A stretch of DNA of 47,710 nucleotides from Bacteroidota bacterium (GTDB lineage: Bacteria > Bacteroidota > Bacteroidia > Flavobacteriales_D > Crocinitomicaceae): positions 1-47,710 of the forward strand of contig VGFL01000006.1 in the NCBI GenBank assembly GCA_016868915.1, in the 5' to 3' direction. The translations under genes were made by a program, and so were the position numbers. Below the pieces are notes generated by a model. The model was not told where the DNA came from. It searched no databases and saw only the letters and a program-made list of their open reading frames with translations. Numbering within the stretch: position 1 is the first letter of the stretch; each line of letters starts with the position of its first letter. Shown here piece by piece: positions 45,251-47,278 of this stretch.

Positions 45251-47278
45251 ATGCCAAAAAAATTATCTAAATTAAGCACTGAATTTCCTCTACAGGAATA
45301 TGATTACATTTTTTGTGGTGTTGGCGCTTCAGCATCTTTGGTTCTCCTCCAACTTCATAATCATAATTTACTTGTAAATAAACATATTTTACTTATCGAT
45401 CCTGATAACAAAAGAAAAAAAGATAAAACATTTTGTTTTTGGGCCGAAGAAGAAGAGGCAATCTCAATTGATTTAAGAAATATTATTTCTCATAAGTGGC
45501 AAAACGTATGGTTGGCAGAGGGTAAAATTGAATCCCTTAAGCCACTGGAATACAATCATATTGCAAGTATTGATTTATACAATGAAGTTCATAATTTAAT
45601 AGAGCAATACGGTTGGGAAAAAATAACTGATTCTATCGATCAGATAAAAACTGACAAAATTTGCCCTTTTATAGAGATAAACGGAATCATATTTCGTGCA
45701 AAATATATTTTTGACTCTCGCCCACCTGACTATAGACCTTCTTTCATAAAAGACATTCATATTTTTCAAAGTTTCGTGGGGTGGTTAATCAAAACAGAAA
45801 CTCCCATAAGCAACCCCGATGCTTTTCGATTTATGGATTTTCAAATTGACCAACAGAATTCAACACAATTCATCTATGTTCTCCCATTTTCGGAAAATAC
45901 GGCCCTAGTTGAGGTGACGCGTTTTGGAGAACACATTATTGAGGAGGATACTTGTAAGAAAATACTTGAAGAATATATTGAAACTATATTTGGGAAATAT
46001 GCTATTCTAGATGTCGAAACTGGTTGTATTCCAATGAGTAATGCAGCAATAGATAAATCTAATTTGCCTGGAGTAATCTCTTTGGGTGCACGAAATTATC
46101 AAATCAAACCCAGCACGGGATATGCTTTTAAGAACATGTATTACCAGTCTCGTAAAATCGTTGAGGCGATTAAAAACAATCAAGCTCTTGATTTTGTGAA
46201 TAAATCAGATTTAGAGATAAAAAAGGGTCGTTTTGCATTCTATGACAATTTACTCCTTGATATTTTAAAAAATAATCCGAAAAAAGGTAAGCCAATTTTT
46301 GAGGCCCTACTTGCCAAAACTAAAATAAAATTAGTTTTAACTTTTTTAGATGAAAAAACAAATCTAAAACATGATATTTTTATTTTCAGTCAGTTGCCAT
46401 GGGCAATCTTTATCAAAACAATTTTAAAACGGTGGTTTCAAAAGAACTGGTTTCGCCCCTTAATGCTACTGCTCATTGCAATTATACTTTTGTTATTGGG
46501 AAATCATACAATGCCACAAAAATATGTTTCAAATGGACTTATTTTAGGGGGTATGATTTCTGTTGGAATTCCACATGGCGCCGTTGATCACTTGCTAGAA
46601 TCTGGAAGGTGGGACCGCAGAGTTACTCCACTTTTTATTGTAAAGTATCTATTTCTTGCGGCGTGTGTACTTCTCTTGTGGTTTGCGAATTCCTCTATTG
46701 CTCTTTCGTTTTTTCTAATTTATTCCTCTTGGCATTTCGGGCAGGCGGACGGAAAACGTTGGGGATTCTCTCGAGGTCTTTCTATGTTTTGGGGTTCATT
46801 TATATTATTTTTTATCCTTGGCACCCACATTCAGGAAACAAATCAAATACTTCAAATAATAGATACCTATAAATTGTCAATTGAATGCCCCCTTTGGTTA
46901 CTAGTCCCTTGGTTTGGTGTAGCTCTTTTTAAGAAGAACGTATCTTTTATCCTAACAATTATTTGGCTTCTGCTATCAGCATATCTCCCACTTATTATTT
47001 CTTTCAGTTTGTATTTTATCGGTCAACACAGCATTACAGGTTGGTATGACATAAAAAAATACCTGAATATGAGTAACAGGCTAATTTGGCTTCATTCTTT
47101 ACCATTTCATTCTGCCGCTTGGATATTTTTATCGCTATTTCTACTAAATTATACATCAACTAGCGCCATTCAAGAGTATGACTTATGGGCAGTATTTTTT
47201 ATATTCATTTCAAGTATTAGTTTCCCGCACGTGATATATATGAATTATGTGTATCCGACCAAAAAGAAAATGAAGTAA
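45251..47278 (+). CDS. Lycopene beta-cyclase fused to Brp/Blh-type beta-carotene dioxygenase
   Basis: The 675-aa protein joins two enzymes. Residues of about 15-385 are CrtY-type lycopene cyclase: FAD-loop-like 'CGVGASAS' (22-29), DSR (155-157), 'FVGWLIKT', MDF (195-197), 'VLPFSENTALVEVTRF' (E221) and 'KPSTGYAF' (286-293). Residues of about 400-670 have seven or eight membrane segments and the Brp/Blh motifs 'GIPHGAVDH' (H442), 'WHFGQAD' (H495), 'GQHSITG' (H593) and 'FPHVIYM' (H660). Together they would turn lycopene into beta-carotene and split it to retinal in the membrane. The second His of the usual HSxxH motif reads Gly (G597), so activity of the second half is not certain. No crtI, crtB or rhodopsin gene is in the window. 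Confidence 0.88.
   Translation: MPKKLSKLSTEFPLQEYDYIFCGVGASASLVLLQLHNHNLLVNKHILLIDPDNKRKKDKTFCFWAEEEEAISIDLRNIISHKWQNVWLAEGKIESLKPLEYNHIASIDLYNEVHNLIEQYGWEKITDSIDQIKTDKICPFIEINGIIFRAKYIFDSRPPDYRPSFIKDIHIFQSFVGWLIKTETPISNPDAFRFMDFQIDQQNSTQFIYVLPFSENTALVEVTRFGEHIIEEDTCKKILEEYIETIFGKYAILDVETGCIPMSNAAIDKSNLPGVISLGARNYQIKPSTGYAFKNMYYQSRKIVEAIKNNQALDFVNKSDLEIKKGRFAFYDNLLLDILKNNPKKGKPIFEALLAKTKIKLVLTFLDEKTNLKHDIFIFSQLPWAIFIKTILKRWFQKNWFRPLMLLLIAIILLLLGNHTMPQKYVSNGLILGGMISVGIPHGAVDHLLESGRWDRRVTPLFIVKYLFLAACVLLLWFANSSIALSFFLIYSSWHFGQADGKRWGFSRGLSMFWGSFILFFILGTHIQETNQILQIIDTYKLSIECPLWLLVPWFGVALFKKNVSFILTIIWLLLSAYLPLIISFSLYFIGQHSITGWYDIKKYLNMSNRLIWLHSLPFHSAAWIFLSLFLLNYTSTSAIQEYDLWAVFFIFISSISFPHVIYMNYVYPTKKKMK

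Follow-up and report, generated by a model that had tools for sequence, protein, structure and literature searches.

A lycopene cyclase-Brp/Blh fusion gene in Crocinitomicaceae and its association with rhodopsin genes in Bacteroidota

Retinal is made from lycopene in two steps, and a single gene in a Crocinitomicaceae genome appears to hold the enzymes for both, which raises the question of whether one protein carries out the two steps and how the enzymes came to be joined. The gene lies in the window, by which we mean the whole 47,710-nucleotide stretch of DNA that was analyzed (contig VGFL01000006.1, assembly GCA_016868915.1). It consists of a CrtY-type lycopene cyclase followed by a Brp/Blh beta-carotene dioxygenase on one chain, and it probably encodes a bifunctional enzyme that carries out both of the final steps to retinal, tethered 1:1, which would most simply have arisen once and spread, often with rhodopsin. 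The features of the gene were as follows.

45251..47278, + strand: fusion gene, a single open reading frame (ORF) of 675 codons plus stop
45305..46402, + strand: lycopene cyclase half, PF05834 (residues 19-384, Pfam; motif residues kept in alignments A1 and A2)
46439..46459, + strand: approximate junction (residues 397-403, from the ends of unfused CrtY and Blh proteins and hydropathy)
46550..47245, + strand: Brp/Blh beta-carotene dioxygenase half, PF15461/TIGR03753 (residues 434-665, Pfam and NCBIfam)

The ORF runs from ATG to stop over 675 amino acids with zero internal stops. All of the motifs from which the original prediction had read CrtY and Brp/Blh in one uninterrupted frame were found, both in the cyclase half (residue positions: FDSR, 154; MDF, 195; VLPFS, 210; KPSTGY, 286) and in the Blh half (GIPHGAVDH, 439; WHFGQAD, 494; GQHS, 591; FPHV, 658). 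Both halves passed their Pfam cut-offs, PF05834 at residues 19 to 384 (E value, 1.2e-35; 123.8 bits against 23.4) and PF15461 at residues 434 to 665 (E value, 3.5e-24; 86.3 bits against 28), which refutes the suggestion that the C-terminal half might fail to match Blh models; the NCBIfam Brp/Blh model TIGR03753 was passed as well (110.7 bits; cut-off, 95.25). The NCBIfam CrtY models matched below their cut-offs (TIGR01789, equivalog, 42.7/215.2 bits; TIGR01790, subfamily, 72.8/209.5 bits), and the cyclase half is therefore placed in Pfam family PF05834 and not as an NCBI-defined CrtY equivalog. Cyclase and Blh halves were both conserved across alignments of 30 (A1) and 79 (A2) fusions; within the 79, D155, R157, M195, K286, T289, G290, and Y291 were invariant, and S156, D196, F197, P287, and S288 were kept in at least 90%. 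Solved structures gave no sequence match to the Blh half (E values up to 1) or to the alignment (E values up to 0.1), and promoter and terminator patterns showed no excess over shuffled sequences.

Fusion of the two genes, whose rarity the original prediction had implied, is common in the clade and widespread in aquatic Bacteroidota. In a sample of 200 genomes from the window's family (Crocinitomicaceae), 63 had some match to the fusion protein and 48 had a match spanning the junction, near full length in 42 and partial in 6 (G021, G057, G072, G180, G186, and G195). Each of the 30 fusion-bearing family genomes that were fetched had one long ORF, and in the remainder the frame was judged from the open-frame status of the matched stretch. 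That stretch carried one stop in four genomes (G193, G017, G148, and G072), two of which (G193 and G017) nonetheless had whole ORFs on fetched sequence. Among named genome records, 340 stretches encoded relatives; only the 80 best were retained, which biases the set toward full-length matches, and 79 of these held both halves in one ORF, the exception (L091) having a broken frame. The fused set came to 118 ORFs (102 distinct). Titles of the fused records named Flavobacteriales, Crocinitomicaceae, Chitinophagaceae, Saprospiraceae, and others, plus Chlorobiota and Kapaibacterium; titles of metagenome bins are unreliable as taxonomy, and one fused record was titled Streptomyces. Across the phylum, PF15461 occurred in 59 of 395 sampled genomes and was fused in 5 of the 59, so that Blh is more often unfused than fused in this sample.

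Two further candidates were rejected. A 958-codon open frame with Blh in G429, considered as a sixth phylum fusion, proved to be a long frame within GC-rich DNA, where a CrtYc/d-like ORF (labeled by eye) occupies another frame; CrtYc/d is a family different from CrtY. The match of G140 to the Blh model was false and lay within an ORF resembling, by eye, a sugar transporter. Viral contigs held no relative of the fusion and phages no match, and the 17 plasmid records that matched did so entirely within the CrtY half, with none covering 80% of the query. A short Blh-half remnant with stops lies near a contig end (L218, G142:C15) in G142, a genome of the window's genus that has no rhodopsin match. 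G057 has a fusion beside rhodopsin (L214, G057:C126) plus an unfused CrtY of a separate clade (G057:C84); perhaps one cyclase supplies retinal synthesis and the second makes precursors of additional carotenoids.

The rhodopsin gene that the original prediction expected elsewhere in the genome was present as a single copy, on a contig other than that of the fusion (G000:C4:28097-28771, L001). It encodes D, T, and E at the proton-pump positions, M at the tuning position, and the retinal-binding Lys. Rhodopsin matches were found in 43 of the 48 fusion-bearing family genomes, against 15 of the other 152 (Fisher P, 3e-25, relatedness ignored); 2 of the 15 fell below the family cut-off, and leaving them out gives 13/152. 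Five of the 48 fusion genomes had no rhodopsin match. At the level of the locus, a rhodopsin ORF lay 21 to 538 nucleotides from the fusion in 56 of the 79 fused named loci, on the same strand in 55; of the 23 loci without one, several were short-flanked, and at least 11 had over 2.5 kb of sequence to each side. All fusion loci together yielded 79 rhodopsin ORFs (62 distinct), every one with DTE and M105 and 78 with the retinal Lys (one gap). At G046:C1:238375-238912, a partial rhodopsin match (profile positions 146-220) adjoins a short match to the CrtY half (residues 7-95), which looks like a decayed rhodopsin-fusion operon.

Carotenoid genes, likewise predicted to lie outside the window, were found as a crtI-crtB-idi run on contig C44 (idi named by eye). 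The CrtI protein passes the NCBIfam CrtID model (709.5 bits; cut-off, 640), and the CrtB-like protein is above the PF00494 cut-off and below every NCBIfam cut-off. This model, passed by CrtI (L032:41-1423, + strand), describes a bifunctional phytoene desaturase/3,4-desaturase, so that some lycopene may go elsewhere than to retinal in this organism. The search for a beta-carotene hydroxylase returned one PF04116 protein, whose only NCBIfam match was OlsE (37.8/475 bits) and which is probably not CrtZ. The assembly (128 contigs, rated 98.5% complete) contained no RPE65-family protein and no second PF15461 protein, the fusion being the sole match; the fusion is therefore the only retinal route of known type found in the genome.

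In the pathway that we propose, CrtI would make lycopene, and the N-terminal CrtY half, predicted to be soluble and to sit at the cytoplasmic membrane surface, would close both of its ends to give beta-carotene. The C-terminal Brp/Blh half, predicted to lie in the membrane, would then use O2 to split beta-carotene at the 15,15' position into two retinals, which would load the proton-pumping rhodopsin. Fixing the two activities at 1:1 and in one place would pull carotenoid flux into retinal. In the simplest history, a single event, in which the stop separating adjacent crtY and blh genes was lost, would have created the fusion, and the fused gene would have spread among Bacteroidota, often together with a rhodopsin gene. 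Against the bifunctional reading stand a missing histidine (equivalent to His192, below), the unmet NCBIfam CrtY cut-offs, the 5/48 genomes without a rhodopsin match, and the separate contigs of the window's fusion and rhodopsin.

Trees of either half placed the fusions together. Fused CrtY halves formed one clade (SH-aLRT, 100; 51 fused, 16 unfused), as did fused Blh halves (SH-aLRT, 99; 48 fused, 32 unfused), again in a wider tree (SH-aLRT, 99; 51 fused, 50 unfused) and with a careful tree method (bootstrap/SH-aLRT, 100/99; 24 fused, 40 unfused). Near-identical fusions were thinned, and several unfused rows were long branches; unfused Blh rows were dropped from the 51/50 tree (3 rows) and the 24/40 tree (13 rows), and 3 unfused rows of the 48/32 tree were later replaced by refetched copies. 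With each half in one clade, a single fusion event is the simplest history. A CrtY ORF lay in the 1.5-kb flank of 9 of 30 unfused phylum loci (L144-L173), with crtY preceding blh on the same strand at -22 to +10 nucleotides in 8 of the 9 pairs (exception, L156). Such an arrangement is the layout expected of the parent operon, but the Blh of all 9 pairs came from the His597 side of the tree, opposite the fusions; the fused Blh thus has closer relatives than these, and the pairs are weak evidence for the parent layout.

The strongest rival explanation is a neutral merger, in which the halves would act independently, with no gain from channeling or dosage, and the fused gene would have spread by way of a useful rhodopsin operon. 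The adjacent unfused pairs speak for it, as joint transcription would already couple doses there, and so does the preponderance of unfused Blh in the phylum sample (fusion in 5/59 PF15461 genomes). Yet on neither tree does an unfused row sit among the fused ones, though splitting the gene again would be easy if the joint were idle. We take this explanation seriously while leaning somewhat against it.

Transfer between lineages was also suggested by the trees. On a tree of 30 family fusions, the window's genus was not one clade (4 to 5 changes), and its monophyly was rejected (AU P, 5e-78, tested after the pattern was seen), which suggests either that the fusion spread horizontally or that the genus is not a natural group. 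The window's rhodopsin grouped with that of G176 (88% identity), whose fusion is on another branch, and the window's fusion grouped with those of G193, G194, G125, G146, and G098. These differing groupings imply that the window's rhodopsin and fusion seem to have different histories, as if one of the pair had been exchanged by horizontal transfer.

The second half of the proposed reaction was assessed against the Blh of the uncultured marine bacterium 66A03, a protein reportedly described by Kim et al. in 2009. A presumed 66A03 sequence was used for alignment; its histidines fall at residues 21, 78, 188, and 192. The corresponding positions of the window gene were as follows.

46574..46576, + strand: His442, at the position of His21 in 66A03 Blh (presumed sequence)
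46733..46735, + strand: His495, at the position of His78 in 66A03 Blh (presumed sequence)
46826..46828, + strand: His526, present in 120/120 fused and 10/53 unfused rows
47027..47029, + strand: His593, at the position of His188 in 66A03 Blh (presumed sequence)
47039..47041, + strand: Gly597, at the position of His192 in 66A03 Blh (presumed sequence)

His442, His495, and His593 were present in all 120 fused rows (106 distinct), and the equivalent of His192 was present in none of them; unfused rows were divided, with the residue present in 28 of 53 and missing in 25. According to a review, alanine at His21, 78, 188, or 192 leaves less than 5% of the activity of 66A03 Blh (PMC9227343). A first sample had suggested a loss specific to the fusions (histidine in 0/112 fused versus 27/32 unfused rows), and the view that only fused Blh had lost an essential histidine was rejected on the wider sample. 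One change on the tree accounts for the presence of His597, as it separates the fusions plus 23 unfused rows from the remaining 27 unfused rows (three rows dropped); Bacteroidota Blh, loci L175-L208 included, thus has two tree sides, with and without the His192 equivalent. At least 15 of the 25 unfused Blh proteins without this residue adjoin a rhodopsin ORF (6 and 9 in two samples), so that cleavage is probably retained, through a different ligand set or geometry. Among unfused rows, His526 occurred in 8 of the 25 that lack His597 and in 2 of the 28 that have it, and is on this pattern a candidate, and only a candidate, replacement ligand. Two of the 25, L148 and L149 (family f36), are second Blh paralogues that also lack the histidines at 495 and 593, and they are probably not dioxygenases of the known kind.

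A bolder version of the bifunctional reading would make the protein a channeling retinal synthase that binds iron through His526 (perhaps with Glu529) in place of His192, hardly releases beta-carotene, and travels as a compact phototrophy cassette with rhodopsin across Bacteroidota; we consider this rather unlikely. It is also unlikely that the Blh half is something other than a beta-carotene 15,15'-dioxygenase, having lost its activity or cutting another carotenoid or position. Glycine does replace a histidine reported as essential in 66A03 Blh, but the half passes the Blh subfamily cut-off (TIGR03753), the same histidine is missing in 25/53 unfused Blh proteins (at least 15 beside a rhodopsin ORF), the fusion is strongly linked to rhodopsin, and no other retinal-forming enzyme of known type was found in the genome.

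The position of the joint was estimated from hydropathy and by fitting the ends of unfused relatives to the fusion protein. By hydropathy, strongly hydrophobic segments begin at residue 403, with none within the cyclase half. Fitted CrtY ends fell at residues 397 to 400 in 6 of 14 cases and at 425 to 516 in the other 8, and fitted Blh starts fell at 396 to 403 in 6 of 23, with the other 17 scattered from 176 to 392; we attribute the scatter to inaccurate fitting of divergent termini. Taken together, the fitted ends and hydropathy weakly suggest that the halves were joined end to end near residue 400. An assembly or sequencing error merging two adjacent genes, which the original prediction had named as a hazard at the junction and which has the general risk of a 128-contig draft and no specific support behind it, is extremely improbable, since the identical single-frame join recurs in independent genomes (79/80 best named loci; 48/200 family genomes).

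If the predicted activities are true, the fusion is a compact natural two-step enzyme for retinal, of use for retinoid production or for equipping cells with rhodopsin. It bears on whether carotenoid enzymes pass oily intermediates directly, and genome surveys that expect blh and crtY to be separate may give it the wrong name. The deep division of Bacteroidota Blh between proteins with and without His192 makes the reported essential role of this residue testable family-wide.

The original prediction had allowed that the fusion might prove to be already described and common in the clade. Common it is; among the literature matches listed, where subscription papers are mostly outside coverage and an earlier notice is possible, no description of a bacterial CrtY-Blh fusion was found. 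Both enzymes and the operon are known, and the literature searched seems to contain no account of the fused form or of how widely it occurs. The system of PMC10675870 has the same two enzymes, pathway, and operon partner as the window fusion, but as two separate genes with blh first, whereas the window has one gene with the cyclase first. In marine Flavobacteriia, also Bacteroidota, blh adjoins the rhodopsin gene and is a gene of its own, and the words "fused," "fusion," and "crtY" are absent from that text (PMC5932025). The 66A03 Blh, as described in PMC9227343, is of the Brp/Blh family like the window protein, which has aligned histidines for His21, 78, and 188; the window protein differs in lacking His192, in being fused to a cyclase, and in its extra conserved His526. 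The nearest case among the literature matches listed is the CrtI-CrtB-CrtYc/d-Blh protein of Thecamonas trahens, in which a single chain likewise carries a lycopene cyclase domain and, at its C terminus, Blh (PMC10016063). That protein is eukaryotic and has four domains, including CrtI, CrtB, and a CrtYc/d cyclase (PMC10016063), whereas the window fusion is bacterial and joins a CrtY-type cyclase to Blh alone.
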